Assembly (NCBI GenBank): GCA_902728285.1
Contig: CACVBU010000865.1
Coordinates: forward strand, 711,044 to 775,043
Reading direction: 5' to 3'
Length of the DNA: 64,000 nucleotides
Origin: Clytia hemisphaerica
Lineage: Eukaryota; Cnidaria; Hydrozoa; Leptothecata; Clytiidae
The translations under genes and the position numbers were made by a program. The notes under the pieces are model-generated. The model ran no database searches. It had not been told where the DNA came from and saw nothing but the letters and a program-made list of their open reading frames with translations. Positions 26,713 through 48,489 of this stretch are shown piece after piece (position 1 is the first letter of the stretch; each line of letters starts with the position of its first letter).

Positions 26713-27685
26713 TTACTCGACAACTTCGAACGTCTGAATATCGGTCTCTTCTATTTGTTCTAACTGACCTACATCGAAATCTCCTTCAGTGAAGGGCGTT
26801 CTTGGTTTATCAACGTGAGCAGAGAGGTTTCTTCCGCCTTCCAGATCTAATTCATATTCATCCAGTTGATCTTCCTTTTTTGGACTTACTGGATGAACTG
26901 TATTTCGCCTTTTCAGTAATTTATCCCCGTGACGCGCATGATGATCTATAGCACTATATCCGTAATAATCTTTGAACAAAAGTTTTCTTTGTAGAGAATG
27001 TTTTTCTTCGAGTTCAGTGATTTTGCCATCGATTGATGATTTGAAATTTGCCACCATATCGTTGCATTGGTTGAAAATATCTTTTTTGTCTAGAGAAAAA
27101 ATTTGGCTCTTTTCAATGGGTTTATTATTCATTTCTGTGACCAGGCTGCACGCACCCCCTCTGATATGTTTTGAAATAGGGGATGCGTATCGTTTTTAAA
27201 ATTCTCGTCCGAAAGTTTAGTTTTAAGCATTAAATTTGATATGAACTAAAAATTTGAATTAATACAATCGTTGGATTTCCAAACCTTTCTAAGAAAATTG
27301 AAATAGGTTACCTAAAAGTTGGGGTAACTCTCGGACATGAAATTTTTACACGATACGCATACCCTATATCAAAACATACAGATGAGGTGCCTATTGTCTA
27401 TTTGTAACTCGAGAAAAGTAAGTCTCACTTATCATTAGCAAATCAATGAAAATCTTTTCTGTCTACTCTTTGGGATTGATTTGTATTGATAAGTTTGAAA
27501 AGTTGTTAAAAAGAAATCTTACCAAGTTTTTGAGCATTTTTCTGGTTCAACTTTTTCAAATAGTGTGACCATAACAAACCAAAGATTGAAAAAACGACAA
27601 ACATTATTGTCATGGAAACCAAAGCTGTTGATAAGATACTCGATTCTGGATCGAAAGGTGATTTCAACTCTGCTGGTGGCGAAAC
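26713..27685 (-). CDS. Channel exons: TM3 and cytoplasmic tail
   Basis: Exon 27523-27685 encodes FDPESSILSTALVSMTIMFV continuing VFSIFGLLW, then basic HYLKKLNQK: a third membrane span with a positive inside flank, as expected after lobe 2. Exon 26713-27134 gives a 140-residue tail with a possible coiled coil (SSIDGKITELEEKHSLQRKL), a basic stretch (KLLKRRN) and an acidic end (LEQIEETDIQTFEVVE, stop). The acceptor at 27135 (GGTCACAG) is the only nearby one that keeps the frame. The intron between them contains a small TIR element (27156-27383). Confidence 0.75.
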
Positions 27686-30600
27686 CTACAAAAAAGCCAT
27701 CAGTGAAAAAGTCGGTTTATTTGAAGAATAAAAAGATAACATTTTTTAAGATTTCCATATCTTATGAGATAACGTACCTAGGAGACGGAGCAAATGGAAA
27801 AATCAGGACTGGTGAAAAAATCCATGACTTAAGGTTTTATTTTTACAAAAGTGTCCCCGTCATTGTTTCATATTAGACACATGCCTCGTATCGTATCATA
27901 TCAGGACAAGGTCTCCTCTTTGTTGTATTGGGGGGGGGGGGTCGTACGGGGTTTGCGATTTCCGAAATACCGAATAATTTTGCCAAAATTTCCGAAATTC
28001 CGCAAAAAAATACTTGTGATTCCGCTACCGATTTTTAGGGTATTTTTCCTCGTTTTGACAAATTTTTCATCAGATTTTTCATGTATGAATTCAGAAAAAG
28101 GGGGATAAAAATTTTGTAATACCAAAATTTCGAAGCAAAAATTTATGGATTTCCGATACCAAAATAATTTCAGAATTCCGAAATACCAAAGGAATTTTGC
28201 CCGATTACCGAAATTCCGAAGAAAAAAGGGTCCATTTCCGCAATTCCAACTGGAAATACTGTACGTCCCCCACTATATTGTGCTGAATAAATAAAAAATT
28301 GTTTCTCTTTTCCTCTTTCTAACCAACCAATCTTGCTCCACATCCGTGCCAATCAAATGTGAAAAAGCTTGTGGATTAAAATTGATGAGTAAGCAAACGA
28401 TATCACTCTTATTTGAAAAAAAATAAAACCTTGAAGAGGGTTAGTATATGAATGTCATTAAAAGAAAATTTAGCAAACACAGAAGATTTAGAGTTAAAGA
28501 AAAGCTATTAAGAATATTTTCCCAAAAAGTTATTATCTTGAGGAGTGCTTATTAGGTAGCCAAGTGGAAAAAAAGTTTTAAGAAAAACTCCCACTGAATT
28601 ATCTCCTTACCCCCATTGGTACAGTGGAGTTACTTAAAGCTTTTAAAATTCTTTCTTCGTCAGACTTGATGTAACTTCGGAATTCTGCCGCCATGCTTTT
28701 CAAATCTCCTGACAAAACAAATCCATACGACCGCGGGTATTCCAATTTTGTGGCCACGCGGAGTCGTTCGTCCGCGAAGAGATGTGCGTTCGCTCCAGCA
28801 GTGTATGCATCTAGCAGCACTCCTTTGATTTCATTTGCAAGCAAGTCGTCTCTGAGTTCTGTGATTGTTTTGTAAGCCCTTTCTATGAAGAAGCAAACGA
28901 GGTAGACTTCAATTAAGAGTATAAAATAGATTTTCTTGGGGTATTATATCCTACATTTAAAGAAGAGTTTTCGAGTTTACGCTAAGAAGTACATGTTTTT
29001 TTTGATAAGCATACAAAAATCCGAAAACAGGCTCAGAGATGCTTAGGTCGAAAACTTAATAAGGCTGAAAAATGCTTGAGGGGATGCTTAAATCTATAAC
29101 ATAAATTTAGGGAAATACTGAAAATCCGTAAAATTCCAGCCAAAAAAGCCAAAATCAGGAAAAAAACATTTTTCGTAGGCTCAAGTAATGCAGGCCATAT
29201 GCTTAATTTTTCCCCATATCTGAACCTAGATATGTTTATAAGTGCAATGCTTATAAAAGAAAAAACATGTACTCTAAGGCGTAAAGGATTGAAATTCGAA
29301 GAAGTACCGGGATTTACCTGTGACGTTAAAGGGTGCATTTGCAGTTTTTCCTACACAGAGCATTAAAGCGCAAAAAAGGTCACAGCCAACTCTTTCTAAT
29401 TCGAACCTCTATTATTCGATCTAGAATTCGACCTTAGAATATTGGTCCCTTCAGCTGGAAAGTGATTTAAACTACTCCTGTAATTCGAATGCAATTTTTG
29501 ATCCCTTGAAGATCGAATTAGAGAGTGAGTCAACTGTAGACCAATGACAGCGACTTACTTTCATTAACCTTTCCATTCCTCAAAAGTCCAAGTTTTTCTT
29601 CAAACGAGCCGTTCAGCGCTCCAACCTCGCTACCGTAAACTTTAAACTCAGCTGCACCATTTACGGTTGTTAAAGCCGTTACTAAGGCTCCAATAACCAA
29701 TGACGTCATCACTACTCCAAAGAGAGACCAGACAACTGCAAAACATCTTGAGTAAAATCTTGTCACTGTAAAATCGCCAAACCTAAAATGAAGAAAAGTA
29801 ATAGAATACCCAGATGCGCTAATAACCGATAATGTGAACGACTAAACCTAGACCTTCTCACAGGAGATTATGGAAATAGAATGAATGTACGAACGAACGA
29901 GTGTATGAAAAAACGAACAAACAAGTGTATGAGCGAGTGTACGAACGAACGAGTGTACGAACGAACGAGTGTACGAACGAACGAGTGTACGAACGAGTGT
30001 ACGAACGAACGAGTGTACGAACGAACGAGTGTACGAACGAGTGTACGAACGAACGAACGAACGAACGAACGAACGAACGAACGAACGAACGAACGAACGA
30101 ACGAACGAACGAACGAACGAACGAACGAACGAACGAACGAACGAACGAACGAACGAACGAACGAACGAACGAACGAACGAACGAACGAACGAACGAACGA
30201 ACGAACGAACGAACGAACGAACGAACGAACGAACGAACGAACGAACGAACGAACGAACGAACGAACGAACGAACGAACGAACGAACGAACGAACGAGTGT
30301 ACGAACGAACGAGGGGTGTACGAACGAACGAGGGGTGTACGAAGGAGTGTACAAACGAACGAACGAAAGAATGAAAATATCAGCAATGCAGAGTCAAAAA
30401 GATATTAAGACGCCTCACCCATGTGTTCCCTGTGTAATGAACGCCCAATACCACCCCTCATAAATTCCACGAATCCAAGTTTTGGAAAAATCAATGTCCT
30501 CGTCAGGATTATTACAAGCTTCCAAAAGCCATACGATATATCCAGCTACCACCATCATTAGAAAGTTCAATCCAATCAAAGGATAGATACCCAAAATCAT

Positions 30601-33600
30601 CATAATCATTTCTATCACAATCTCGTTGATATTTTTATCTCGGACAATCGCCACAACACCTGGGTGTCCGATAAGTGGAACAAACGGATAACCAACCATT
30701 TCGTCCGAATGTGTATTCCCAATTATCGGGAATGATAAATCTGTAAACTCGTCAATTTCTTTTAAAATTTTTAATTCACTTGTTTTTTTAGCGAGGCTTT
30801 CTCTGCCATTCCGTAAAGTATCCAATTTCGAATGAAGCAGTCCGTTCGGTGAATTACACACACCGCATGCAGCTTGTATTGCATTTTGAAGTATTTCGCC
30901 GAACACTCCAGAAAGTTGATTGTCAGCATCTTCGGTTAAGTATGGAGCGAGTAGATAATAGTTTGTTGAAACCACTTTTGGACAAAGACACGTTCCTATG
31001 AGAGAATTGTGATATGTTTTAAGGGTAATACCTTAGTGTCAGATTACTTTTATTTTTACAACCAAACTTTCAGAACCAATTAAGTTCGTGGAATAATTCT
31101 AGAGAATTTAGCAAAAATAGTAAAATTCACGAGATACCAAATCGCGTGACCCATGATTTTCAGGTTAATGCTGGTTAATGTTATTACACACAGAGTATCT
31201 TTTAATGAAAGTTTTTTAATGAATACTCACTTCCGACAATATTTTCGCTGACTCCTTCTCCAAACTGATTAACAGCCATTAATTCAAAATCGTAAAACGT
31301 GTTTGCATCCAGAAACTTCAAAGTGAGGCTATTCAATGATGGATGCAAACCATAAATATCAATTTTAGGGTTGATATAGACGTCAGCTCCACTTTTGATT
31401 AGGAAGACTTTGATTTTGTATGACAAAAGATCACCATGGATTTGATCAGCTGGAGGTGGAGACCAGTGTATTGTAAGTTGAGTGTGTGTTTTGATGGAAC
31501 TGATGTGAATGTTCGCAGGTGGTGCTGATGGAGCTATTGAAACAAGGGTATCTCGTATGCATACAAAAAGAACAGTTCTCAATATCTCTGGTAAATGTAC
31601 ATTTTGAGTTGAATGTAAGAGCATTAAGTTCAGATGCTTATTTGACTCTTCCATATAATGTTCGTACATTGGGGATGGAGAATATATTGCCCGAGGGTAG
31701 TGAAAATTCTGCCTTGCTCTGTTTTGGGGTAATTTTGAATGTCAAGGGGGTTAACTGATGCTTGTTCGGGGGCGGGGTTAGACCTGCTGTCTTCAAGGTA
31801 AAAGTCACAATGTTCGGAGGAAATTTCCAAAAGATGTTTTGTCCTCTCCCCTCCATATTTGAATTATTTTCTGGAAGACCCCATTGTTAGGAGTAATTGA
31901 TACAGAGAGCTTTCCCTGAGATATCAGTGTAAGATTTTTAAGGTGTTTAAGGGTTTGTCTCAGTTTTTAGATCTTTTTACCAAACACTAATAATATACAA
32001 AACAAATTAGTGAAACCTAAACAACACAATTCTTACCTGAGTTCAGAGTTTGAGCGCTTGCTTTGTCACATGGACCATCTCCTGCACTATTGAACGCGCA
32101 AACTTCAAAAATGTATGACGTACTCGATTCCAATCCCTCTGTGTAAGATACGCCACTCAAATCAAAAGACACGTTTTGTGTTGATACCAAAGAGTTTTGT
32201 GAATAAGCGTAAATATGATATCCGAGAGGAATTCCATTCATCTGTTCTTGAGGAACTCCAATCCAACTGACGTAAATCGAAAATGGTCCGGAAGACAAAG
32301 CTTTGATGTCCAAAGGTGAGACCAAGGGTACTAAAAGAAGAAAAGAGGTCTCTTAATGAACAATCTTCGCAATAAAGTGACACTTGGATACGAACGGATT
32401 TTTCAGAGATCTGTTTTAAGACTTGTTTAAAAAATACTTACACTTTTCCATAGTCCATACAGAACTCAAAAGACTTGCTATACCATTCCCTTCGCCATTT
32501 GAAAACGCTAATACTCTGTAGACGTACTCCGTCCCTGGTTTCAGCCACGTCAAATGAGCTGTCGTGTTTTCAGTAGCATACGTAGAGTAGGGTTGATTTG
32601 AAAGTAATTTTTCACGATAAAAGATGATGTAATTGTCGACGTTTGATTGGTTGAGAGCGTTCCATGAAATCGACAAAATTTCCGGGGACGGCGAAAATGC
32701 AGTGACGTTTGATGGTGGTTCAGTTAGTACTAGAAAATAAAATAGTATGGCAGGTGTATTAACAAAACTTTGTAAAACTTTAGAATTCAAGTCTGAAACG
32801 TTTTGCAATACCTTACCAGTAGCGGAGTAGACAAAAGGGGCGCAAAATTTGTGTAGGAAAGCAGATAACAGTAATTATCTCTTAGAGGCGATCCCTTACG
32901 CTAATCTATCAAGGAAAAGGTTACTAAAACTTTTATAAAGAAACTTTCATATGTAGCAGCGCAGGCAAAAATAGTCTTTTAAACGTCAAAGAAATTGCTG
33001 TCTTACAATCTGGTCCGATTTCAAAGGTATTATTGGAGCTTGGTAAGATCTCCAACTTTCCAAAAGCACCAAACATTTCGACGTTATCTTGGAAGAACAA
33101 TGTTTGATCTTGATCCATACTCGCATATACCACAGTGAAGTTGGCAATCACACTACCTGGCCTGAATATAGAATAAAATAAAACGAATTAGTTTCAAGTC
33201 AGTTGGAGACGTCCTGAAATAAATAGCTACCATGGAAATAGGCTTCTTTTTTTCTGTACGGTTAAAGTCGACGTTTCTAAAAATATGATCAGAGACAAGC
33301 CTTTCATGAATAACGTAACGAATTGGTATCATTAAATATGATGTTTTTTTAATGAAAGATGATTTCAAGGAAAATCGCGTAAAATAGTTGTTTTTTTTTC
33401 ATAGGGGCGCCTCAAAACGGTACAAGAATAATAAATTTAGAGAGAAATTCTTACTGTAACGAGTGTATTTGTATATTAATCAGTTGATCTTTCATCACAC
33501 CCCCGCCCTCTGCATACACGCCTCTCATCTGAAAGAGACAGACATTAGAGTAATAAGAAGTCAAAAAGGTATTCTGAAACGCAGTGAAGTATAAATGCTT

Positions 33601-36600
33601 ACTGGTTATCTATTAACAGAGTAGCTTTGTTACGTGTTTTGCAAGCATAATAAACCAGCTGCGCTGGAAGCTCCGGCTTAAGAGATTAAAAGATGTGAAA
33701 GATGAGCTTGTTGAGTTAGTTGTGTTAGAACGTTGCCCACAAACTGCTAATCAGAACAGATCAGAAAGCAATGTAATAATTCTATTGCAGAGCGAGTATG
33801 AGAAATAATCTTAACGAATAAATAAACCAGCTGGAAGTTTAGCTCTTCTAAGTGATTACACATGCACTTTCTGCCTAAAGAACCAACCCCACCCCCCGCC
33901 CACTCATCCTCGACTAAAAAGTTCAAAATTGGAGCTAAATGAGATAAACATTTAGAAGTCAATATTTCCAAGTTCTTGATTTGATTGTCCAGATAAAATT
34001 TTGGGGAGAAAAATAGCCTAAATTAGAGGCCACAGGCTTTTAGCTAAGCATTATTTTTTCTGTTGGGACAATACTTGGGGGAGAGTAGGATAAACCAAAT
34101 AAAATGGTACAATAGTGTGTATGTAATAAATAGTGGTATATTTGTAAAATATCTGTGTCGGGTTTGAAAAATCAAAAGGAACGGTCGCCAGCCGCGATGA
34201 AATTACGACAAAGTCCAAAAACGATCATTTTCAGCCATAATACTGTGAAATTGTTTCCAATCTTGTTCAAATTCACACAGGAATTGTTTTTTAGTATCCT
34301 TTATTGAATTCTCATAGTGATATGTTTGTAAAATATCTGTGTCGGGTTTGAAAAATCAAAAGGAACGGTCGCCAGCCGCGATGAAATTACGACAAAGTCC
34401 AAAAACGATCATTTTCAGCCATAATACTGTGAAATTTTTTCCAATCTTGTTCAAATTCAGACAGGAATTGTTTTTTAGTATCCTTTATTGAATTCTCATA
34501 GTGGTATGTTTGTAAAATATCTGTGTCGGGTTTGAAAAATCAAAAGGAACGGCCGCCGCCCAGTCAAAAAATGATGATGAATACAAAACAGGATCATTTT
34601 CAGCCATACACATAACACCACAAAAACTGCTCAGAACGTTTTCAAATTCGCACTGTAATGTTGTAATTTTAGTATTGTCTTTCGAATTCCAATGGATGTG
34701 TGTTTGAAAGTTTCACAGAGTTTTATGGTTTTGTGGTTGTTTTGTGGCGTCCATAAAACTAGAGAAGTTAGCCATATGCAAGATTTAATTCATGGCCAAA
34801 ATTTCTCCAAAGTCATTCCACATTGTTATAGACCAGTATGCATCAGAATTCTCATAAATCATGTCCAAAACATCATGAATAGTGATGAAAATGACCACTA
34901 TCTTTCACTGAGATTTGCAGCTAAGCCCACTTTCAGCAGCCATCTTTTTCTAAATACTTTCGCAATATTATCGAAATCCAGATAATCCGTTTTTATTAAA
35001 TCGGAATAGATTATCGGATTAGATAAACAAACAAAAAATGTCTTGACCGTCGGAAGAGAGAATTAAAGGCTCCTAGGCCGGAGCAAAAATTTCTTTTACG
35101 TGAGCATCGCAGTTAAGTTTTCTCTGAAACTAACGTGTGAGGATGGGCTAGATCCTCATATCGATCTTAAACAGATTATATGAGACTTTTCTTTTCATTT
35201 TTACATCGTTTTAGACAAAAGAAAATTAGCCTCTCTGATTCGATCTTTGAAATACCAAAATTTTTTCTTCGAATTAGAGAAAGATTCTAATAACAGAGAT
35301 TCATACCATTTTGTAGCTTATTATATAAATTTTGGGGTAGAGGTGTGAATTAGAGAAAACTTACAAATTATCAAACTTTTAATGTACATAACATTTTTTT
35401 ATCTGAAATCTGAGTCTGCTTACTTGTAACAATGAAAAGCGCAGAGATTTTCTTTAATTTCTCTGAATATTCCCTGAAGTTTTTAAGGTTTTTAAAAGAT
35501 TTCTTCTCACCTCAGCTTCTAATGTCAGTTTGAATTTCTTATATGCAATGCTTTCTGGGTCCAGCATTTCTTCGTCAAATTCGTACTCAAAACGAAGATT
35601 ACAAGTTAATATTTTCTCTGAAACAGAAAAAGAAGAAATTTTATTGCATTGAAATATTCTCGATATGCGTAAGTCATTTTTCTAATGGAAACACCCGAAA
35701 AATGCTGCTGTCTGTTTATCAAAAATAGAAACACGGTGGTCAAAATCTTTGAAAATCCGGCAATTTTTCGAGTGCTTCCGTTAGAGAATATGAAGTCATC
35801 TTGAAAAGAATAACATACAAGATTTCACGCACAAATTAAATTAGAGGTACAAAATAACTTTTAAAAAACCTTCCATTGCATAAAGAACGTTAAGCTAACC
35901 TCTGCAAACATCAACATTGCACGGTTGCTTATCCTCATTAGGACCCGGGCAATCTGGATTTCCACCATAATTCGCCGGATTGCACGTTCTACGCCGGACA
36001 TAATGTCCAGTATTGCACGGTTTGTCACAGGAAGACCAAACACTCCATTCAGTCCATGTTGCATCCACTGAAAAAAGAGAAGAAAAATTGGATCAGTTTA
36101 GGGCTACGATAGTATTCTCGAGTGACTTAGGGCAAGTCTCAAAAACCTAACACTTTACCCTAAGTTTTCGCAACCACTTAGGGCTCTAAAGTGTACCTCT
36201 ATACCTTGAAGTTTATGAATCAGGATGTGACCTAATTAAATATCACCCCAAAAAGTTCTTAATATTTTTACCAATTTTAGAGGTTAAAAACTTCGCTTGA
36301 AGCATCAGCTTTTAGGCCAAGTTTTGCAATGCAGGGCTGACCCCAGACTGCAACACTTAACATGTTGAATTGGGGATGAGTTTCTTAACGGTTTGGTCCA
36401 AATAAAGATATTTCCTCACCTGGGCAATTCCCCACACCACAATCATTCGAGTCTACTAAATTTCCAATACAATCATTTCCATTGTATTGTGGCGCTGGTG
36501 CGTCGCATAATCGCGTTCGAGTCGTGGTGCCACCACCACACGAGGCGTCACAACTCGACCATTGGCTCCACTCTGATAAACCTCCATGGACTAAAGAATA

Positions 36601-39600
36601 AAGCATAAAACTATTTAAGCAGATTTTGTGGCTTTAGGAAAATGAAATGATGTGGTAATTGGCATTATAATAACTGATGGTCAATTATTACAAGGCGTCA
36701 GAAGGCTGCCAGTATTCCTCTGATACAGATTTCAGTTACGCGCGCAGGCTAAAGCGTCAGCATCTCAAAGCAGATTCCCGCTTCCTCCATTGTTTCGTTC
36801 AGTTCATAGAAAATGTATGTCTAAAATTCCTAGATTACTGGACTGTCCAGGTAAAATAAAGACTCTGTCTATCTATTGTTAATCACAATCATTTTTGCTT
36901 ACCAAAAAGACTATTGTGGGACAGAATTGTAGTGAAGTCGACATTTTTAGAGTATGATATCCAACTATCAATTTCAAAAATCATTAATTCCTTTTAAAAA
37001 AAGGGTGACTGTTATGAAGTGATAAAAACCTTAGAATAATCAACGATAGATCTACGAGAACGTAGATAAATAACTCCTATGTGACTTACTAGGGCAATAC
37101 TGAGCACCACAATTTTCAATTTCTTCTACTTGTCCGTCACAATAATCAAAGCATGTGCGTTGACGATTTCGTGTACCGTTACATGTGACTGAGCATTCAC
37201 TCCATGGCGACCAAGGTCCGAAACCAACGTCCGCTGAAAGAATATTATGAGTTATTTAGTACAGTTGAGTCTCCATAACTCGAACGCGCACGGGGAGCGG
37301 CAAATTTTTCGAGTTAAGGAAGTTTCGAGGTACGGAGTAAAGTTCATAAGGCATTGTTAGCTGAAGGGACGAGAGAGCTTGTTCGAGTTAAGGAGACATT
37401 TCGAGCTATAGAAGTTCGAGTTAAAGAGACTCTACTGTATGTCTTTGTTTTCAGCTATCTTAAAGAGGAGGAATGTTTAGAACCGATAAATTCTTATCTA
37501 AAGCTGTTTTGAAAGGCAAGCAGAGCTTTCAATTCTTGAGAAGTTGAAAGAGTCTTGCAATTCGAGATAATACCTCGTCTAAATGCAAACCACCTAAGCT
37601 AAGCTTTTCGAAAATCGAATTGCAATGCTTAAGACGTAAAAAGTTGACATTCTAGCATGATAAAATTCTGTGAGAATTTCTTAGTATCCTAATCCATAAG
37701 GATCCAAAAGAGGATGACAATCCCCTCTAACCCTTCATCTGATTACGAGCAACTATCTTCAAGCAATATAATCTAACTTTCATTGACACAATGACAAAAT
37801 CTTCTGAAATTATCCTCTTCCGGCCTTCGATCACATTTAACTTCATTTGGAACGCCTTCGAATTCCACACAAACATCTCCGACCAAACAACCAGGACTAT
37901 ATGTTTTTTGCCATTCAATTCTTGTTGGATCGGTCGTGTAAGGTAATAAAACGTCCATGAATGCATTTATACTGTTTCCTGTTTCGATCTCAGAAGAACA
38001 GCCAAGTTCTAAAAAAATGAGTTGAAAGAATGCCTGAAAGATGCTTATATCCTAAAAGAAAACTAGGGAAATTCCGAAAATCAATTAGGCTTCTGCTCAT
38101 CCTCTAGTGAAAGTACGCGATTCAGACTAAAGATCCATAAAATCCCAGTTAACAAGTGATACTTTTATGGACCTACCTGGTTATGCATTTAACACATTTA
38201 TAATTGATATCTACGTGACGTGACCATTAAACAATCATTCAGAACACAAATAGTGACGATCTATTAAAATTAGTCGTTTGTTTCTTATAACAAAAACGTT
38301 TAGGAACCAAAATTTCATGCTCTTGAAATATTCTTTCATATTCAAGACTTCGCGAGCAAAAAAACATATCTCATCAAAAAATTGAGTAATTTGGCTAAGA
38401 ACATTGATGTATGCTTGTTAATAGCGATTCTTATAGATAAAGATGCCTTTTTCTGAGCTGAAAAATTATTTTTTTACAAAAATCTGCTTGAGCCATCTTT
38501 TACCTACTTTCATGCAAAAGTCAGAAAAAAACAATTATCCAATATTTCACAAAGTCCAAAAAACCCTTTTTTAGTCGTTTTTTAGCTGAAATTTACCTCA
38601 GAATTTTTTTTTCTTTCAAAAAACGAGCTCCGTCACATTCGAGGGTTTATAGTTATGCATCTTTGTGCAAAAAATCATAAAGAATGAAAGAGCCAATCTC
38701 GAGAAAAGCTAATACCTAAGTAATTGTTAATGTGCTTATAAAAAATATCAAATTTGGCCAGTTTTTCAATAAAAACACGCCAAGCAACCAAAAGTTCATG
38801 TCTAAACACACATATTCTTCAAAAGTAAGCTCTCATGGGCAAAAAAAACATCTATCTCATAACAAAATTGAGTAATTTGACTAAGAACATTGATGTATGC
38901 TTATTAATAGTAATTCTTATAGATAAACATGCGTTTTTTGCGCCAACAAAATTTTTTTGCAAAAATCTGTTTGAGCCATCTTTTACCTATGATGGTACCC
39001 TACTTTCATGCAAAAAATCAGAAAAAATTAATGATCCAATTTTTCAAAAAGTCCAAAAAACCCGTTTTTTAGCCGTTTTTTGGACCAAATTTGCCCAAAA
39101 ATTTTTTTTTCGAAAATTGGGCTCCGTCACATTTTGGCCACCACCATTTTGCACCTTTGTACCAAAAATCAAAAGATTTCTATGATTCAATCCTGAGAAA
39201 AGTTGGTAACAGACGAACGGACGAACGAACGGACGAACAAACACAGGTTAATTTATAGGATCTCCACCGGGGTAGGTCCAATAACAGCCAAAATCAGAAA
39301 ATCTAGTTTATGGTAATACTTAGCATATGCTCAGATATCCTTAAATTTTTGCCATATCTGAGCCTAGATATAGCTATAAGCGCATATTACTTAGTTGGTC
39401 GTGGATCTAGTTTTGGTTTAGTTTTTATCTATTTTTGTTCAAGTTATTCGAAATTGTAGTTCTGCGTACAGTTTAAAGAAATACGTATCAAAACAAAAAG
39501 TTAAAAATAAACGACCAAAATTTTGGCAGTTTCCCACAAATTTATGATGAATTTATGAAAGCCATTCTTCGATTGTTGGCTTTAGATTACTGAGATATAA

Positions 39601-42600
39601 ATATAAAATGTCGATATATATTTACCTTTACTTGCACAAAATTCATCACAAGATTGATGAACTTCAGCCAAGTAGTACCCAGAACCTTGACAGTTTTCTC
39701 TGGTCAAACATTCTTGTTCATCTGTTAGAAGCTCACCGCCACAAGAATTATCATCTTCATCGAAAAGTGTTTGGTCGTAACATATCCGTGCCCGTGTTTT
39801 CGTGCCACGTTTGCATTCACGAGAACACGGGGACCATTCACCCCACTCTGAAACTATTTCTCCTGTTTGGTAGAAAATAAAATTTATCGTTATTTTTTCA
39901 TCAGCTCCACATGAGGGTTAAGATGGTTCCCAACGGTCCTGAACCTTATGGGACACTCCAATGCAAAGGATTAGACCCATTGAAGTCCAGAAAATAGGCA
40001 GAACCAACGAATTTTCACTAAGATAGCTTAAAAACGCTTGGAAAGTATTTTCCAGGCCACCCTGGACGTCACACCTCCTCAACATAGGGAGCATTTCTGG
40101 AATAATATAATAGTGATCAATCATACTTACCAATAATTTTTTGGCATAGCGCAGCAAAGTCAGGATCATTTTGATTCATCTCACACTCTCTCCAGCGGTA
40201 CATTCGAGAGAAATCAGCTATTGGTTTAAACCGTGTACAATCTTTGTCTTCCGCTTGGTTCACCAATTCTATTTGACTCCGAAAATCACCATCTGAAAAT
40301 GAATATACAGTTGACGCTCTCTAATTCGACGTTCTACTATTAAAGTCCCCGTCAACAAGAAACTTTCATAAACGCTGCTCCCTTATTCGATGAATTTCCC
40401 TTGAAGATCGAATCAGAGAGCGTCAACTCTACGTTTTTTACAAGATCAAAATATATAAGAACATAGGCTTCGATGGCCTAGATATTAAGAACAAGTTAAG
40501 AAAATTTTAAGGCCTTTACGGACTCTAAAACACCCGAGTTCTTTATAGGAAGAAGGACAAAATTATTCATAAAATGGCGAGAGAAGAATATGTTAAGAAG
40601 ATTTTTATGCTTAAGACTAAAAAAAGTCAACATAATCAGAAGGCTTCAAAAATTTGGGATGCTCTGATAAAAAATGTAGTTTTAAATCCCTGAAACCCTT
40701 CGTTCTTATTCCCTTTTTTAAAATTGTCTCTCTGAGGCTGTTTGAATATCAGAGGGATCAGAGTGCAATGAAACGAACATTAAAATGTTCCAAGCGCTCT
40801 CGCCAAAAAAAGAAGTTAGCCCGTTGTCACCGGTTGCCGGGGATGCCGGTACGGTGCGGGACTGTCCCACCTGGACAATTACCGGGCAGAATTGTCATAT
40901 TGTAGGGAATGTACTAAAGTTTCATCGGCCAGAAGCTGCTCACATCAAAACATTAGATCCTCCGATTGAATCGAAACAAAGAACTAATTCGATACTCGTG
41001 CTTTCAAAATGATTCCACTCAACAAGGAGAATTAATCGTAAAATCATTCAAATGCCTATTTAACTCAAACATTTATATTTCCGTAATAAGTCTGATTTCC
41101 TTAAGAGTGACTTCCATATTGCTGGCTTACTTATATAGCGAATAAACTTTAACTAAATATATCTTAGTAGAACCGATGCAGATACCTTTGTGATCTCCTT
41201 TCCCTATTGTGATACCAAATTTAGCGATTCGAACAATTTGTTTATGTGGGATTGTGTCAAAGATCAGTAGCACGTGGTCTCCGTCGCCAGAGTTTCGGTT
41301 TTGAATTCCCAATGAAGCTTGACACCACTCATCCACAACACAACCGTCTAGCCAATCGTTAAAGATAACACCGTAAACTTTAATTCCGATACCACTTGAT
41401 TTTAACGGAATAATGCTCACGAATTTGATCCAGAATTCTATCTTTAGGTATTCATTTGCAAATATTCTATCTTGGAATCCAAGCCATTGGTTCGGTGCAG
41501 TTCTGTCTTGTTTATTTTCAAAGGTGATTATTTCTTCCGGATCAAATCTTTCATCGACGATACCCCCCAAATACACTTTTCCATTGTTGGTTTCCGAAGG
41601 GAAATTTCTTCCAAATGCACCCAAAATTTTCAATCTTGAATTCGCAATATTTCTCTCAGTGAGAAAAGTCCATTTTGTAGCCGATGTTGTTCCTGTAATA
41701 AAGATGATTTTCCAGAGATTAATGAGCCGGGTAGTCAGTATTTGAAATTCATTCTGCACTACAAAAATCATTTCAAGAGAATAAAGTTTTTTTGGGCTCT
41801 TTTCTAACAGATAAATATCATGAGAGGGGATTATAAGTGTACAACGAAGAGCAGAAGAGCAGAATTTAGAGTAAAAACTTCGTGATTTTCGCGAATTTTA
41901 ACCCTTTTTCTAGAAAGATTATCATATGAAAGTTTATCTTTGTTAAATGCTTCTATTTTTGTGAAATGTTTTAAGAACATTTGAAGGCTTTGGGGACTCC
42001 AAAATCGACCAGTTTCTTAGGTCGAGCAAAAATGCTAATAAAATGATGAAAATAAGAACATATTAAGAACTCAAAAGAACATTCGAAGCCTTCAATAATT
42101 ATGGATGTTCTTATAAAAAACATAACACCAACCGTCATCCCATTTGAGTAATCCTTCCGATTCGGAGTCAGTGGCTCCCATCCAAGTACGTCGGTATCGT
42201 AAGAAGTCACTGATAAATTGAACTTCTTTATTACTATCCGGCATAAATAAAGTTGCACCCCAACTACGACACATTTCATCTGCATCTGATCTTTTAAGGA
42301 CGTCTTGTGAAAATTCTCGGAAACATTTGTTTTTGTTTTGAAATCCATGGTCTTTAGTACATTCGCTTAAACCTTAAATATAAAAATTGAATAATGAGAA
42401 ACTCCAAGTGCCTATAAAGAAATTAGGCGAGACCAATTTAATTTGCTGTTCTACGGGTGCGACCGACCCAGCATTTGCTGCAAACGAAAAAATAAGAATA
42501 TTGAATTTCCGATGCCACAAATTTCTAATACTAGTCATTTAAAAGATTTTCACTTAAAAAAAATTGAAAAGAATCTAGAATCACGAAAGATTTTATTACA

Positions 42601-45600
42601 AACTCCATCAAAGATGGAATTTTCGACCAAGATTATTTGAAAATATTACTTAAAGCCTAATTACCAACCCTAATAAATGAAAATCTTATTTTTATTTTAC
42701 CGACCGACATTTTGCTAACGATCTGCCCGTAGAACAACAAACTAAATTGGTCTCGCCTTAACTTAATCCCAGAATACATTGAACTTTATGAACCTTAAAT
42801 TTTTTGTGGACTATCACATCGGTTTTGACGTATGAGTGTTCGGCATAGTACGAGAAGTAAAATGTGAGAATAGATACTGAAAACCTTTAAAAGCTCAAAA
42901 GTGCGGCATTTAGAATAACAAGTTGAATTTAGCGCTTTGTTTTCACGCAGCATATTGTTTGGAATTTATCTGGCTTTTATGTGGAAACCATGAAGGCCAA
43001 GCGTTTCGGTTGGGAAGTAAGCGGCTTGACCCGCTTAAGAGTTTTATCTATAGTGTATTTGGGGCTTTAAAGTTAATAGTTGAAACGGACTACTCACCAT
43101 GTCTCCACTGGCAGACAAGTTGATGTTTATTGTCAGTGCATTTATACCATTCCAACCACTTTTCAGGAAGATTATTCACGATTCTGATGCAGTTCTTATC
43201 AAGAGTATTTTCACCGACGATTTCAAGAGGTGTTCCAACATGATCTGAGAAAAGAAGATCAATGAAAAAAACTTTTACGATCGTTTTACCCAGCTGGCAC
43301 ACAACGTTTTTTCAACGTTCATCTCACATTATATGGACATTCTGAACATTACATGGCCGTCGAAACAACGTTGGGTGCCAGCTCACCCATTTACTCAAAG
43401 GAGATTTACAAGAGGTAAATTTTGTACAAATTTTATACATCGAATCTTCGTATACACCAATTGTTTCAATGCTTTGATTTTTCATTTTATAAAATAGATT
43501 TTTTCACCTTTTAAAAATGACTTTTTTAAACAGACTTTTCTAACCTAAAATCATCGAGATAAAAAACAAAAATGATATGAAAGAATACTTTGTTTTGCAA
43601 AAGTATTAAAGAAAATACTTTAAAACATATTGCTTACTATCTTGCCACTTGAGAACGCCTTCTTCCTCTCGATCTGAAACAGCAGCTAAGAAAACTCCAG
43701 GCTGCAAATAATCCGTTAGTTGGTTAAATTCTTCAAGGGAATTTAAGGTGATCATTTCACCACTATATTTTTCAGCACAGTATGCTAATCCTTCTCCATT
43801 GTATTTCAACTCAACTAAATCCATAACCATTATACATTTGGCGCCCAATCCTACGGCGCCGATTGGGGCGTTTGGTAAATGACAATAATCTAAAGTACAG
43901 TTATGTTTTATTGAAGAGAAATTAATAAATCAGTAGCAATCAGTACTTGGTTTTGTCTGTGCCTAATGCAATTTGTATTTTCAGATCTCTTTCAGATGAA
44001 AAGTTTCTGACCTTTGCATTATGTTCGTTCAATTTAACCCTGACCAGGCCTCAGAAACAAAGTTAAACCATTTGGCTACAGTCCCCGTCCAGCTCATGCA
44101 AAAGACTTATATCAAAACGAAACAACACGGACGTCAGTAGCGTAGACAGGGGGGACGCAAAATTTGTGTAAGAGAGCAGATTTTTATGACACAGCAATTA
44201 TCTTTTCATATCACAAGTTTTGCGTCCCTTCCTGTCTACGCTACTGGACGCCCTCTGTAAATTCATGAGATTCATGATACAATGTTTCATATGGAAGCAC
44301 CCAGAATAGCCCGGCCGTTTGCCATTAGTCTTAAATTTGAAATTAGTGGCAAGGACCATTCTTGGAATAATATATAGCGAACTAACCGTCGGGCAGGTTC
44401 CCATATTCCATTTGTCGAACACGTGCGGTAGCCGGGTCGTAAAATTTATCACTGGCGAACACGCTTACATTGAAAAACGTTCGAGGGATTGTATTTTCAA
44501 CTTGGTGAACTACCGTTCCATTTATGCGTACAACAAGCATGGTTTTTGATTCGATAACCTTCTGAACGACTTCCACTTCAGTCCAAGAGTGAAGAGGAAA
44601 AATATTTTCCGAAGTGAATACATGATTAACTTTGTTACCAAGCGCTGTTCCGACATGTAATTTCGGCGCTCCTCTAGTAAACCAAAGACCTGGAACTCGG
44701 TCACCTATCGAATCTCTGTTTCCTATTCCTGCTGTGAAGCGTAAAATGTTACTCCAAGTGTTATGGACTCCCGTTGGTTTGATTTGAAAGGTGACGTACC
44801 ATGTTGGACTCCACGTGGGGATGGTATCAATAAGCGTACCACTTATGAGTGTAAACTCGTCTATTAATAATAAAATATCATGACAAGTAAAATGATTTCT
44901 TAGTCTGAATAGCACTGAGACCTCTATCGATATACTTCACTAAAAATAACTCTTTTCGCTAGTGGATGAGCAGAAGCCTTTAATGATTTCTACTCCTTAA
45001 GAAAACCCTAAAGTAAAATACTCTAAAGAGCGCATACAATTGAAATGCCGATTATTGAGAGTTATTTTGCTCAGTTTTACAAGTAATGTCAAATTTTTGA
45101 ATCCAAGATCCTACAACACAGAATGCGTTGTTTTGACTTTTTCCAGCATTTTTATTGAATGATCAAAAACCATTCACAAACATTAGCGTATCCCCGTGAA
45201 AAGTCTTGATTTGGATTTTTAAAGGTTCAAAAACCCAGTGACTTAATCTAATGAAAGTTGTAGAAATAAAAGTGTAAGCTACCTTGAGGTAAGTTATAAT
45301 ATTGAAGTTTCCGAATCATCGCTCGTGCTGGTTGAAGAAGGGCATCACTCGCGAAGACATTCACATCTCTGTAGATCTGTGGTTTTGTATTTTCAACTCT
45401 GCGTACTTCAGTATGGTTTAGTCGAACGGCGAAGTAGTATTTCAATTCTTCTTGAAACTGTGAGATTTCTAATGAATACCATAGATTGAGTTCCAATGTG
45501 CTCCAAGTGCACCAGTTATTACTGTCATCGATTCCTGTAATTTTAATTAAGGAATCAAACATACAACGTTACAAATTCGCTCTCTTAAATTCGACATTAA

Positions 45601-48489
45601 AGGGACTAAGACCTTTTTTTGAATAGTAGAAGATTCGAATTAACGACAGTATTTTCCACAATTCCTCTAGGGTCCTGTAGTTTTTGAAGGGTAAACAATA
45701 GAATATGTTAGGGTATTGAAAATCTGTTGCTTATCGTAATTTTCTTTTCTAATAACTCTTGACTTTTAACTTTTTTGTTGCTAAGAAATTATGGTGTTTT
45801 TATTTCAAAACCTTATTTACCATAAAACATTACTAAAAAGCAAAGATCAGTCCACAGTACACTGTAGTCTAAATCATCTGGTAAGTATTTAAAAAAAACA
45901 CGAAACCAACCTGTACAAACAGACATAATTGTGGTATTTTGTCTGATAATGACCATTGGAATTCGCATTCCGTAGCCAATATTTTGACTGCCCGTACTGA
46001 ACCGAATAATGTTTGTCCAGTGTGGAGAAACGTCCAATAATTTGAACTCGAATGATACATGCCATGTTCTTTTCCACTGTGGAATTTGTCCGATGAGATT
46101 GTTTCTGGTAACTTCTCTTTCCTCTAAAGAATGGATGAATGAATAAATGTGGGAGCGAATGACTGAAGAACAAAAGACAGTGCCGAAATGCGTAAGGCCA
46201 AAACGTAAAGAGCAAACGAACGAATGTTCCTAGTAAAAAGGGGATTTTATCTTTTAAACTCGCTCATACACGTTTCTGTTTTTATAAGAAAAAACTATGT
46301 AAGAACATAAGATTTCAATGCCCAAAATGTTAAGAACAAGTTGAGAACATTTTAAGGCTGAAACACTCAACTTCTAAAGAAAGTAAACGAAAAAAAATTT
46401 GACGTACCCAATGAAGTTAGTGGTAATGCACCTGTCGTTTCTAACGATGGTGTTGTTGCTGTGGGCGGTGTCGTTGCTATGGACGCTGTTGTTGCTAGTG
46501 ATGCTGCTATGGATGTTGTCGTTGGTAAAGATTGTGTTGTTGCTAAGGAAGTTGTGATTATTGCTTAGTTTGTTTCAAAAGAGTTATCAAATCAACTTAA
46601 CACTAAAATAAATTACCTTATTTCTTCAAATAAGCCATAGATTTATAAAGCCCGAAGGGCTAGATGTCGTGCTTTCGCTGAAAAGTGTGCCGAGGTTAGG
46701 TAGGAAATCCTACCACGTGACATTACAATAGAATTTCAGCGCTTGGCCAATAAGAATCTTCGCCGGTTTTCGAAAACAATAGCAGCAATAGTTTTTGCGA
46801 TATTCAGTTTTTTTTCTTGGAAGAGCTTAAAGCACGACATCTAGCCCTTCAGGCTTTATAAATCTATGAAATAAGCGCCACGACGCTCTTTACCTTTTCA
46901 AAATTATAGTCTTTCCTAGTTTGAAATACCATTTTCTTAAGACTTTTATGGGTCTAAGCAAAAAAACTTGAATCTTACAACTTATAATTTTGCATTTTTG
47001 TGGCTATTCATTCTTTAAAATGGAAAAACCAGGTCTGTTTTCTCAAGCTAAAATTTTCATTAATTTTTGACCCTAAGACTTTTGCCTGAGACCGTCATAT
47101 TTGTCCGAAAATCACACCAAAGTGTCCGAAAAAAAATTGAGACCTAAGTAATTTTGATTCCCCTACCCCTTAGCTTTCCAAAAATGTATAACAAGTGCTT
47201 TGGCCAAAACAATCGAGCGATTTTACAAAATGCCCTCTACTACATCTTTAAACCGATTAAAATGGTTCATTTAATTCCATTAGAGGTGGGGTTAACTTAA
47301 GGGCCTTTTAGATAGAACAAGCAACATGCTGAATGGACCTACCTAATGATTAACATCAGATGAAAATAAGAAAAAAGTGACAATAATTGTACAATAATTG
47401 TACAAAAATTCAGAATGGAAAAATAAAGCTTGTGTGTTGAATAATGTAAAATGGTAAAAAGGAATTTCCCCAAACACGAAAATTACTTAAACCATTCAGG
47501 CCCAAAAAACCTTTAAAGCTGTTTTTGGCCCAAATTTGCCCAAAATAATTTTCCTTAAAAATCTGGCTCCGTCACATTTTGGGCATTGCCATTTTGCATC
47601 ATTGTGCAAAAAATCAGAAAAAAATTATGAGTCAACATTGAGAAAAGCTATATTTTCTTATTTGGTTAAAGGGAATTTCCCCAAAATACGAAAATCCGTC
47701 TTTTAAGGCGAATAAGAATTTCCCGGGAAAAACTACTTCAGTCATTCTTTAGAGAATCTTGCCCTCCATCTTTGTTCAAAAAATCAGAAAAAAAGTAATA
47801 ACAGGATTTTGCACAAAGTTCAAAAAACCCTATTTTAGGCAGTTTTTGGCCCAAATTTGCCCAAATATATATTTTTTTCAAAAATATGGCTCCGTCATAT
47901 TTTAGGCATTGCCATTTTGCATCAGTGTGCAAAAAATCAGAAAAAAATAATGAGTCAACTTTGAGAAAAGCTATATTTTCTTATTTGGTTAAAGGGAATT
48001 TCCCCAAAATGCGAAAATCCGTCTTTTAAGGCGAATAAGAATTTCCCAGGAAAAACTACTTCAGTCATTCTTTAGAGAATCTTGCCCTCCATCTTTGTAC
48101 AAAAAATCAGAAAAAAGTAATGACAGGATTTTGCACAAAGTCCAAAAAACCCTATTTTTAGGTAGTTTTTGGCCCAAATTTGACCAAATAAATTTTTTCT
48201 CAAAAATCGGGCTCCGTCACGTTCTGGGCATTGCCATTTTGCATCATTGTGCAAAAAATCAGAAAAAACTAATGAGCCAATCCTGAGAAAAGCTGGTAAC
48301 AGACGGACGAACGAACGAACGAACGAACGAACGGACATGGGTTAATTTATAGAACCTCCACCGGGGCACCCGGAGGTAGGTCCAAAAATGGGAAATGTGT
48401 TGAATAAAAATGAATATAACCTGGTGGCGAGGTGCGTACAAAGTCAACAATGGAGATAATATGAACGATGAAACACAGTAGAAGCCAAT
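26713..48489 (-). CDS. Giant modular ligand-binding-domain K+-channel-like receptor (26 exons)
   Basis: Predicted type-I-leader, three-TM membrane protein of about 2,100 residues. Exons, 5' to 3': 48421-48489, 46408-46563, 45911-46123, 45283-45534, 44387-44860, 43638-43889, 43098-43244, 42133-42372, 41186-41692, 40131-40292, 39626-39862, 37778-38008, 37090-37233, 36420-36590, 35900-36067, 35511-35617, 33455-33528, 33007-33161, 32442-32729, 32037-32330, 31231-31533, 30419-30995, 29559-29782, 28611-28882, 27523-27685, 26713-27134. Every junction is GT-AG and in frame, which strongly supports one gene. The core (last five exons) is lobe 1, TM1, pore loop, TM2, lobe 2, TM3, as in iGluR/GluR0 channels, with a K+-type filter. 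The ectodomain carries lectin, TSP1, SEA and FN3 modules. Only the start-codon exon is missing. Ligand, selectivity and gating are inferred, not shown. Confidence 0.88.
27156..27383. repeat. Short TIR element in last channel intron
   Basis: CTGATATGTTTTGAAATAGG and GATGCGTATCG at the left are inverted at the right (CGATACGCAT, CCTATATCAAAACATACAG). Confidence 0.65.
27911..28275. repeat. Diverged inverted-end repeat in channel intron
   Basis: A G-run followed by GTCGTACGG at the left and GTACGTCCCCCACTATA at the right are weakly inverted; the interior repeats CGAAATTCCGAA-type words. DNA just downstream (28280-28430) resembles 18480-18650 in RPL17 intron 3, so another dispersed repeat abuts it. 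Confidence 0.5.
28611..30995 (-). CDS. Channel exons: ligand-binding lobes and K+-type pore
   Basis: Exon 30419-30995: lobe 1 (YYLLAPYLTEDADNQLSGVF, AACGVC, YPFVPLIGHPGVVAIV), TM1 (PLIGLNFLMMVVAGYIVWLL) and pore helix WYWAFITQ. The filter is completed across an intron: T-H-G then F-G-D from exon 29559-29782, followed by TM2 (VVWSLFGVVMTSLVIGALVT) and the start of lobe 2 (KVYGSEVGALNGSFEEKLGL). Exon 28611-28882 completes lobe 2 (IKGVLLDAYTAGANAHLF, YGFVLSGDLKSMAAEFRSYI). The order lobe 1-TM-P-TM-lobe 2 is that of iGluR and GluR0, while G-F-G-D matches K+ channels. The filter position usually Val is His here. Confidence 0.87.
29881..30370. repeat. (ACGA)n microsatellite in the intron that splits the pore filter
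   Basis: About 240 perfect bases (30043-30296) with degenerate GTGTACGAACGA units on both sides. It lies within the intron between exons 30419-30995 and 29559-29782. The long open frames in several frames and both strands (RSFV and TNER repeats) are artefacts of a repeat lacking stops. Confidence 0.95.
31231..32729 (-). CDS. Channel exons: three fibronectin type III domains
   Basis: One FN3 per exon: 32442-32729 (EPPSNVTAFSPSPEILSISW, then LKPGTEYVYRVLAFSNGEGNG), 32037-32330 (IYVSWIGVPQEQMNGIPLGY, TSYIFEVCAFNSAGDGPCD) and 31231-31533 (PSAPPANIHISSI, LTIHWSPPP, FYDFELMAVNQFGEGVSE). All show the conserved Trp, the L/Y...Y.F.V.A.N pattern and phase-1 ends. They form the stem above the ligand-binding lobes. 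Confidence 0.9.
33007..35617 (-). CDS. Channel exons: SEA-like domain
   Basis: Exons 35511-35617, 33455-33528 and 33007-33161 join (phases 0 and 2) into about 112 residues: LTCNLRFEYEFDEEMLDPES, KDQLINIQIHSLQ, then PGSVIANFTVVYASMD. The 'GSVIxxF.V.Y' strand is typical of SEA domains, which lie near membranes and often autocleave; here the GSV is present but the usual GSVVV cleavage context is only approximate. The large intron between the first two exons holds the 33650-35084 repeat. Confidence 0.65.
33650..35084. repeat. Dispersed repeat, copy 2 (first at 21487-23323)
   Basis: Same ends and internal 170-180-base tandem units as copy 1, but without the MITE or the trailing hairpin. It lies in the intron between the first two SEA exons of the channel gene. 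Confidence 0.8.
35900..37233 (-). CDS. Channel exons: three thrombospondin type 1 repeats
   Basis: One repeat per exon: 37090-37233 (GPWSPWSECSVTCNGTRNRQ), 36420-36590 (SEWSQWSSCDASCGGGTTTR) and 35900-36067 (TEWSVWSSCDKPCNTGHY). Each has the WxxW motif, used for C-mannosylation and glycosaminoglycan binding, and six cysteines. All exons are symmetric phase 1, the hallmark of shuffled modules. Confidence 0.88.
37257..37440. repeat. pogo/Tc1-like MITE in channel intron
   Basis: TACAGTTGAGTCTCCATAAC at the left and AGAGACTCTACTGTA at the right, with TTCGAGTTA repeats inside and TA at both ends. A similar small element is at about 40307-40431 (CAGTTGACGCTCTCTAATTC), and decayed relatives are near 29400-29545 and 45570-45650. 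Confidence 0.65.
37778..39862 (-). CDS. Channel exons: first TSP1 repeat plus Cys-rich module
   Basis: Exon 39626-39862 begins with a thrombospondin type 1 repeat (SEWGEWSPCSRECKRGTKTR, then C...CGG, ECLTRENC) and continues with YYLAEVHQSCDEFCASK. That continues in exon 37778-38008 (LGCSSEIETGN, GCLVGDVCVEF, FRRFCHCVNE), giving a separate module with a CxxxC...LGC...CxC pattern. The pattern faintly recalls the Cys-rich C-terminus of MGAT5, but this is a weak resemblance. The intervening intron contains the 38174-39281 repeat. Confidence 0.7.
38174..39281. mobile_element. TGGACCTACC TIR element, diverged third copy
   Basis: Ends TGGACCTACC and GGTAGGTCCA; two internal diverged tandem units contain CAAAAAATCAGAAAAAA-type words, and a CGAACGGACGAAC run lies near the right end as in the other copies. 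It is in the intron between the Cys-rich and first TSP1 exons. Confidence 0.7.
40131..41692 (-). CDS. Channel exons: unassigned extracellular domain
   Basis: Exons 41186-41692 and 40131-40292 encode about 223 residues without a recognised family. Features include IANSRLKILGAFGRNFPSE, an aromatic core EYLKIEFWIKFVSIIP, paired cysteines in LDGCVVDEWCQASLG, and a second exon with DCTRF, WRECEMNQNDPDFAALCQ. The donor at 41185 (GTATCT) was chosen because it gives phase 1; the alternative at 41130 (GTAAGC) would put a stop in the next exon. Confidence 0.65.
40307..40431. repeat. Small TIR element (CAGTTGACGCTCTCTAATTC)
   Basis: A 125-base element with imperfect inverted ends, TA-flanked, related to the 37257-37440 element. 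It lies just upstream of the channel exon at 40131-40292. Confidence 0.65.
42133..42372 (-). CDS. Channel exon: first half of a second C-type lectin-like domain
   Basis: The exon encodes KCFREFSQDVLKRSDADEMC, SWGATLFMPDSNKEVQFISD and TWMGATDSESEGLLKWDDG, matching the first-half exon of the preceding CTLD including the donor position. The expected second-half exon (final cysteines) is not found before the next exon at 41692. Either it has been lost, is too diverged, or is skipped; the phase-1 ends keep the frame open without it. Confidence 0.7.
42424..42760. repeat. TIR element (TAGGCGAGACCAATTTAAT) in channel intron
   Basis: TTAGGCGAGACCAATTTAAT and GTTCTACGGG at the left are inverted at the right (CCCGTAGAAC, ATTGGTCTCGCCTTAA). 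No coding content. Confidence 0.75.
43098..43889 (-). CDS. Channel exons: C-type lectin-like domain
   Basis: Exons 43638-43889 and 43098-43244 together form about 133 residues with the CTLD layout: AKCIMVMD near the start, AYCAEKYSGEMITLNSLEEF (helix), FLAAVSDREEEGVLKWQD, then NCIRIVNN, WYKC and HQLVCQ with the closing cysteines. Canonical EPN/QPD and WND sugar-binding motifs are not seen, so calcium-dependent sugar binding is doubtful. A protein-binding role is possible. Confidence 0.75.
43289..43386. repeat. Small inverted-end element (CAGCTGGCAC)
   Basis: ACCCAGCTGGCACACAACGT is inverted as AACGTTGGGTGCCAGCTCACCC at the right. About 100 bases, in the intron within the first CTLD. Confidence 0.6.
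44134..44250. repeat. hAT-like MITE (CAGTAGCGTAGACAGG)
   Basis: Ends CAGTAGCGTAGACAGG and CCTGTCTACGCTACTG, with GGGACGCAAAA inverted inside. A fragment of the left part recurs near 32820-32870. CAG...CTG ends suggest hAT, but a clean 8-bp duplication is not seen. Confidence 0.7.
44387..46123 (-). CDS. Channel exons: two tandem related globular domains
   Basis: Exons 45911-46123 plus 45283-45534 make one domain (about 155 residues), and 44387-44860 makes a second (158 residues). They are homologous: W(H/Y)V(S/T)F, WxNI(I/L)RF(S/T), GxxIP or GDRVPGLWF, V(E)NT, the block NV(F/S)VFASD, PA.A..R...Y.NLP. The strand pattern looks like a lectin/LamG-type beta sandwich, but I cannot name the family. 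Only the second is encoded by a single exon; the first is split by an intron at its middle. Confidence 0.7.
46408..46563 (-). CDS. Channel exon: Thr/Ser/Ala-rich mucin-like stalk
   Basis: In the joined frame the 52 residues are dominated by Thr, Ala and Ser (for example ATTASIATTPPTATTPS), a probable O-glycosylated spacer after the signal peptide. Triplet-repeat slippage probably shaped it. The exon is symmetric, phase 1 at both ends. Confidence 0.65.
46636..46868. mobile_element. hAT-like MITE with 8-bp TSD AAATAAGC
   Basis: Inverted ends of about 38 bases beginning CATAGATTTATAAAGCC, flanked by direct AAATAAGC at 46628-46635 and 46869-46876. An 8-bp duplication and CA...TG ends fit the hAT superfamily. 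It lies in the first identified intron of the channel gene. A decayed relative is at 11600-11804. Confidence 0.8.
47334..48384. mobile_element. TGGACCTACC TIR element, copy 2 (inverted to 19011-20048)
   Basis: A near-identical inverted copy of the element in RPL17 intron 3, with the same three tandem units and a CGAACGAACGGA run. It ends only 37 bases short of the channel signal-peptide exon. Confidence 0.8.
48421..48489 (-). CDS. Channel exon: signal-peptide core
   Basis: The 69-base exon (acceptor TTTTTACAG, donor GTTATA, the weakest in the gene) encodes WLLLCFIVHIISIVDF followed by VRTSPP, a classic hydrophobic leader core. Both ends are phase 1 and join in frame to the Thr-rich exon. The Met-bearing exon must lie upstream and was not located with certainty. 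Confidence 0.6.

Follow-up and report, generated by a model that had tools for sequence, protein, structure and literature searches.

We describe a gene in the hydrozoan Clytia hemisphaerica that, as read from its sequence and from predicted structure, almost certainly encodes an ionotropic glutamate receptor (iGluR)-type channel of the order lobe 1-TM1-P-TM2-lobe 2-TM3 (TM, transmembrane segment; P, pore loop) with a K+-type selectivity filter, joined to an ectodomain of ~1,470 residues composed of lectin, TSP1, SEA and FN3 modules. The gene lies on the minus strand of the window, a stretch of 64,000 nucleotides on contig CACVBU010000865.1 (C594:711044-775043 of the assembly searched, which has 417 Mb in 951 contigs; positions below are those of the window unless a contig is named). 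Three-frame translation, exon by exon, yields 24 exons from 46121 to 26713 in a single open frame that ends with a stop codon at 26713 and, with the corrected last exon, encodes 2,009 residues. An earlier interpretation made from the letters alone (the original prediction), in which a GluR0-like K+ channel stands under an adhesive ectodomain, is supported in outline, and its observation is confirmed except at the 5' end. Gating by adhesion or contact is a tentative proposal that we hold with less than even confidence; identity and contact gating taken jointly are our best explanation and come close to an even chance, leaning on identity.

That the ectodomain and the pore belong to one gene is indicated by the homologs and by a paralogous locus. 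A core match at E <=1e-5 among 6,335 candidates of 0.55-1.75 times the length defined a set with nine long homologs (five from Clytia, two from Hydractinia, one from Hydra and one other), and TSP_1, fn3 and Ion_trans_2 exceed their Pfam cut-offs together in all nine. Two further protein searches, each confined to the 7,999 candidates with the most words in common, returned 2 and 4 proteins; the length limits of the protein searches left out relatives of ~1,041-1,112 and of <227 residues. P0013 and P0014, which match over only 8% of the query and carry ion-channel domains (one is named a two-pore potassium channel), were dropped. The closest genome match of the Clytia hemisphaerica protein P0001 is on contig C700, in stretches 83-99% identical, and tblastn of P0001 against the window returns, all in sequence, the exons from TSP1 repeat 1 through to the tail, apart from the two short exons that open the SEA domain. 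The C700 locus is arranged like the window gene, with beta-rich modules, lectin halves, exon Y, TSP1, SEA, FN3 and core in the same succession. When the two loci were compared 22 of the 24 exons aligned, the three beta-rich exons being matched with repeat copies of C700 that are unlikely to be their orthologs; the two shortest SEA exons had no match of their own. The ratio of non-synonymous to synonymous substitution rates (dN/dS) is 0.231 over 1,893 codons and ranges from 0.08 to 0.39 in the 18 exons with finite dS, dS being saturated in the three beta-rich exons and in one SEA exon.

A further relative, P0010 (445 residues, from a 2,364-base JGI contig), covers the five channel exons without introns, starting within the first of them, and is 94% identical over 453 columns, gaps included, to the model as it stood prior to the tail correction. 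As P0010 starts inside lobe 1, it provides no test of the FN3-core joint, and no transcript spanning that joint was found for the window gene; together with the fact that the homologs are predicted proteins, this is what can be said for two genes, an adhesive protein and a downstream GluR0-like channel, misjoined by the exon model. Against such a misjoining, P0012 and all nine long homologs run across the joint as single proteins, P0011 (from another genome, read as an unspliced open reading frame, ORF) has an FN3 module followed by lobe 1, and the core exon joins in phase, no start codon with a signal peptide having been found at its head. Because of the homologs and the synteny we rejected the two-gene reading, which we regard as hardly credible.

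All 23 introns are of the GT-AG type, some with weak donors (GTTGGT, GTATCT), and those of the ectodomain are in majority of phase 1, a bias that resembles shuffled extracellular modules. As P0010 lacks EMNNKPIEKSQIFS, which an acceptor at 27134 would add to the last exon, that acceptor was dropped and 27089 adopted. Upstream of the 24 exons, a Thr/Ser/Pro-rich exon (46563..46408, donor GTACGT) keeps its frame and joins the gene in phase 1, the next exon then starting at 46123, and the predicted mucin-like stalk is graded probable; Ser/Thr/Pro-rich stretches, amounting to 52-72% of 60 residues, also occur in P0002-P0008. The first exon with its signal peptide, formerly placed from 48489, was not confirmed: with the low-complexity filter on, no conserved coding stretch turned up in the closest paralog beyond the first beta-rich exon on its 5' side. 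The comparison covered 631 ORFs of at least 20 residues, from 45500 to ~20 kb past the window end, against C700:465001-505000, and its only matches were the already known beta-rich module and one short reverse-strand match. The in-frame model that had been drawn with 26 exons is confirmed for 24 of them and probable for the stalk, and the exon at 48489 is unconfirmed.

The channel core occupies the last five exons. The first (30419..30995) encodes ligand-binding lobe 1, TM1 and the start of the P-loop, and its joint to the next exon is supported by P0010. The second (29559..29782), matched by Ion_trans_2, carries the filter THGFGD, begun in the preceding exon, with TM2 and the start of lobe 2. 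Lobe 2 continues at 28611..28882, where P0010 and the family alignment place an invariant Asp (GVLLDAYTAG), TM3 lies at 27523..27685 according to P0010 and hydropathy, and a cytoplasmic tail of 125 residues with the stop codon follows (26713..27089, acceptor fixed by P0010). Hydropathy gives three transmembrane regions in the core, and elsewhere windows over the threshold only in lectin domain 1 (1.62 compared to 1.6). Ion_trans_2 scores 24.1 bits, above its cut-off of 22.5. A two-lobed clamshell is interrupted by TM1-P-TM2 and a third helix comes after lobe 2, as in iGluRs, and in a structure predicted for a paralog the iGluR fold match covers both the lobes and the pore. The single-sequence fold of P0010, with a mean predicted local distance difference test score (pLDDT) of 44.5, was too low for use. 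An N-glycosylation sequon is found in lobe 2 in 12 of 13 family members, which fits a lobe lying outside the cell. The intron between the two pore exons (between 30419 and 29782) contains 62 perfect copies of the tetranucleotide TTCG at 30046..30293, an array open in several frames on both strands; 6 further copies are located at 48308..48331.

The Clytia genome also holds simpler relatives of this core. The filter TTVGYGD is carried at 24 of the 56 places where Lig_chan matches the genome, 13 of which read as single ORFs, indicating that K+-filter glutamate-receptor-like genes are common in Clytia. These receptors include L005 (958-2523, plus strand), L008 (949-2262, minus strand) and L080-L090, with clusters at C75 2092615-2133475 and C129 1749389-1777088. 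Seven that were aligned are collinear with the window core over 370 columns (hhalign E 1.9e-32), and Ion_trans_2 and Lig_chan are matched at E up to 1 in all seven; in the genome search L005, L083, L084 and L085 exceed the Lig_chan cut-off of 30.8 bits and L087, L089 and L090 fall under it (27.2-29.5 bits). Unlike the window gene, the intronless receptors (L005, L008 and L080-L090) are single-exon proteins of 434-528 residues that lack an adhesive ectodomain and have the canonical TVGYGD; by eye, they start with a hydrophobic, signal-peptide-like segment.

Several observations weigh against our reading. Lig_chan reaches only 14.1 bits in the window core, far under its cut-off, the predicted structure belongs to a paralog rather than to the window protein and has a mean pLDDT of 74.6 and a predicted template modelling score of 0.44, and a sequence search of PDB with the lobes returned 8 distinct sequences up to E 10, the best at E 0.017, with no iGluR among them. 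Pfam, run on the lobes of 8 members, likewise gave nothing credible. Sequence searches of PDB that included the pore gave mostly K+ channels among the matches listed, which were 60 of 94 in one search and 60 of 327 in the other. One could accordingly imagine an ordinary outward-facing Kv- or KcsA-type K+ pore with accessory domains, unrelated to glutamate receptors. This is very improbable, as the lobe with the N-glycosylation sequon comes after TM2, the iGluR fold match of the paralog model extends over lobes and pore, and Lig_chan exceeds its cut-off in P0004 (51.3 bits) and P0012 (34.4; P0007, at 19.5, is below), as it does in four of the seven stand-alone relatives that it matches.

The filter itself is unusual and counts as a further point against us. 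Where the K+ signature reads T-V-G-[YF]-G, the window protein has T-H-G-F-G, and the replacement of Val by His renders K+ selectivity uncertain. The motif T-H-G-[YF]-G-D is found in 11 of the 13 family pores, the Hydra protein having Ala and P0012 Gln in place of His, whereas Val occupies this position in all 24 other K+-type loci of the genome; Phe (THGFGD) occurs only in the window gene and its close relative P0010, Tyr being present in the remaining 11 family pores. Such a filter would suit a non-conducting contact receptor or adhesion scaffold, whose channel part serves assembly, as in the synapse-bridging delta-type receptors. We consider this improbable, since T-x-G-[YF]-G-D is otherwise kept in 13 of 13 pores and the TM1/P-loop and TM2 exons show dN/dS values of 0.133 and 0.114 compared to C700.

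The ectodomain modules named in the original prediction were searched with Pfam. TSP_1 (4 stretches), fn3 (3) and Lectin_C exceed their cut-offs, which bears out the lectin-like, TSP1 and FN3 modules; SEA is matched (2.5e-5) just under its cut-off, at 24.8 bits compared to 26.4, and that assignment carries this reservation. All exons below are on the minus strand and, unless otherwise stated, are placed by the exon model and the C700 comparison. The first beta-rich module consists of two exons, 45911..46121 (37% identical to repeat copies in C700) and 45283..45534; its resemblance to ConA/LamG is a guess, judged by look in a module lacking a Pfam family. The second is a single exon at 44387..44860. 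C-type lectin domain 1 is split between 43638..43889 (82% identical to C700, dN/dS 0.082) and 43098..43244, and C-type lectin domain 2 between 42133..42372 (Lectin_C, dN/dS 0.166) and 40131..40292, the latter weakly conserved in C700 (36%).

Inside lectin domain 2 lies exon Y (41186..41692), 169 codons that keep the frame and are 79% identical to C700 with a dN/dS of 0.144. It occupies the same position in C700, the donor region is conserved, the donor after 41186 coincides with the end of C700 similarity, and a donor at 41131 was dropped for being out of frame with the following exon; P0002 has no counterpart. Translated without exon Y, the lectin part gives two Lectin_C stretches, and exon Y may be an alternative exon whose inclusion would either break up a lectin fold or take its place. 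As position and order are kept in C700, we set aside the possibility that exon Y and the beta-rich exons come from a transposon or a different gene. The blocks at 47490..48290 and 38830..39250, multi-copy and with similar plus-strand reading frames, look like a mobile or satellite repeat.

TSP1 repeat 1 shares its exon with the start of a Cys-rich module (39626..39862, TSP_1, 93.6% identical to C700), the Cys-rich module continues at 37778..38008, and repeats 2, 3 and 4 follow at 37090..37233 (Pfam TSP_1), 36420..36590 (TSP_1 2.2e-13) and 35900..36067 (TSP_1 4.9e-12). Pfam offers no credible family for the second beta-rich module, exon Y, the Cys-rich module or the tail, two matches being far below cut-off. 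Elsewhere in the genome, at C649:2421791-2424151, one open frame of 1,557 codons encodes numerous TSP1-like repeats that share 41-44% identity with the TSP1 part of P0001. The SEA domain is spread over three exons: 35511..35617, 33455..33528 (74 bases, picked among four candidates by phase and frame; the C700 alignment starts within it) and 33007..33161, the last with the motif G-S-V-I and supported by tblastn of P0001. The motif G-S-[VIL]-[VIA] is the self-cleavage site of SEA domains and is present in all but two of the 12 SEA segments as placed, P0009 and P0012 lacking it. FN3 domains 1, 2 and 3 lie at 32442..32729 (Pfam fn3), 32037..32330 (fn3 7.4e-7) and 31231..31533 (fn3 2.4e-9). The distal modules vary by member, lectins being present in P0002 and P0003 and none being named by Pfam in P0005-P0009.

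Based on these data we propose that the protein would assemble as a tetramer whose ectodomain and two lobes face the outside of the cell. The distal lectin and TSP1 modules may attach to a sugar-bearing surface or matrix, be it on another cell, on prey or in the mesoglea. The SEA domain may cleave itself and act as a breakable joint, and the three FN3 modules would relay contact or tension to the clamshell; its lobes, on closing, would open a K+-type conductance and hyperpolarise the cell, selectivity and gating being inferred. Contact or tension on the arm might suffice or might act together with a small ligand bound in the lobes. It is conceivable, though unlikely in this full form, that the hydrozoan family consists of recognition-gated K+-type channels in which interchangeable distal modules choose the surface, TSP1 and a self-cleaving SEA bear the load and FN3 drives the clamshell, and in which an inhibitory, possibly pH-sensitive conductance (owing to the filter His) silences or resets the cell on the right surface, e.g., prey versus self.

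Further points stand against our reading. Among the members SEA exceeds the Pfam cut-off only in P0004, and P0012 has neither TSP1 nor lectin modules according to Pfam, indicating that the large adhesive part is not always needed. In canonical iGluRs a lobe-1 Arg binds the ligand carboxylate and an acidic residue contributes from lobe 2. The lobe-2 Asp (GVLLD), the putative ligand-contact residue, is invariant in 13 of 13 members, and its retention together with the clamshell favours a small ligand over pure contact gating. The main rival is thus a ligand-gated chemoreceptor with an anchoring arm, in which the clamshell would bind an amino acid, a peptide or some other cue from prey and thereby open the K+-type pore, the ectodomain only positioning the receptor on a sensory cilium, in the glycocalyx or beside a partner. 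We regard it as a real but doubtful possibility. Both lobes are homologous to those of the stand-alone receptors of the same genome that lack an adhesive ectodomain, and in some cnidarians glutamate triggers feeding responses and makes cnidocytes discharge, according to the part of PMC12226733 consulted. On the other hand, the lobe-1 Arg could not be identified by alignment (by reading, K or R is near its place in 9 of 10 core rows), and a chemoreceptor leaves the retention of TSP1 and FN3 in all nine long homologs unexplained.

Clytia, Hydractinia and Hydra are laboratory species, and they offer living animals in which the link between a K+ pore, a binding lobe and cell adhesion is testable. 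The relatives were found without a functional name, most filed as uncharacterized or FN3-containing proteins; as they are already in databases the sequences are not new, and it is the recognition of what they are that may be new. K+-filter glutamate receptors have been described as precursors or intermediates from K+ channels to modern glutamate receptors (PMC12332018, in the part consulted), and the Clytia genome has 24 such Lig_chan-matching loci and, next to them, another family in which the core is joined to a large adhesive ectodomain. A channel built in this way could allow a cell to translate touch or contact into an electrical response. Should the pore indeed open on contact or on meeting a surface sugar, recognition would lead directly to inhibition, and the protein would be a candidate for the means by which stinging or epithelial cells assess the surfaces they meet. 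The His inside the filter poses a sharp question for channel biophysics.

Among known systems, polycystin-1 resembles the window protein in having a very large modular adhesive ectodomain, including a C-type lectin, on a channel-related membrane protein. Polycystin-1 differs in its far larger number of helices, its PLAT domain and its pore fold; the window protein has three transmembrane segments, and Pfam gave no PLAT match in its core or ectodomain. The delta-type receptors (GluD) have the iGluR fold and participate in cell-to-cell adhesion, through the iGluR amino-terminal domain and partner proteins, whereas in the window gene the modules reside within the channel polypeptide. A literature search over titles and the beginnings of abstracts returned no iGluR-type channel with a TSP1/FN3 ectodomain, and no such protein was found in the consulted parts of the iGluR phylogenies PMC12226733 and PMC6307864, neither thrombospondin nor fibronectin occurring in the main text of the latter. 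TSP1 repeats also occur in HyS0027.82, a marker of Hydractinia eurytele (PMC12464821, consulted in part) that is at most a candidate member of this channel family. GluR0 of Synechocystis combines the glutamate-receptor plan with a K+-type filter (PMC12332018, PMC12226733, in their consulted parts); unlike the window protein, with three transmembrane segments in its core, ~1,470 extra residues outside and THGFG in place of the K+ signature, GluR0 has two transmembrane helices (PMC12332018). Another close parallel is AvGluR1 of the rotifer Adineta vaga, a K+-filter glutamate receptor of the eukaryotic plan (PMC12332018): its description, in the part consulted, mentions no lectin, TSP1, SEA or FN3 ectodomain, and what it shares with the window protein is the eukaryotic iGluR architecture together with a K+-channel-type filter, in which the window protein departs from the K+ signature by its His.
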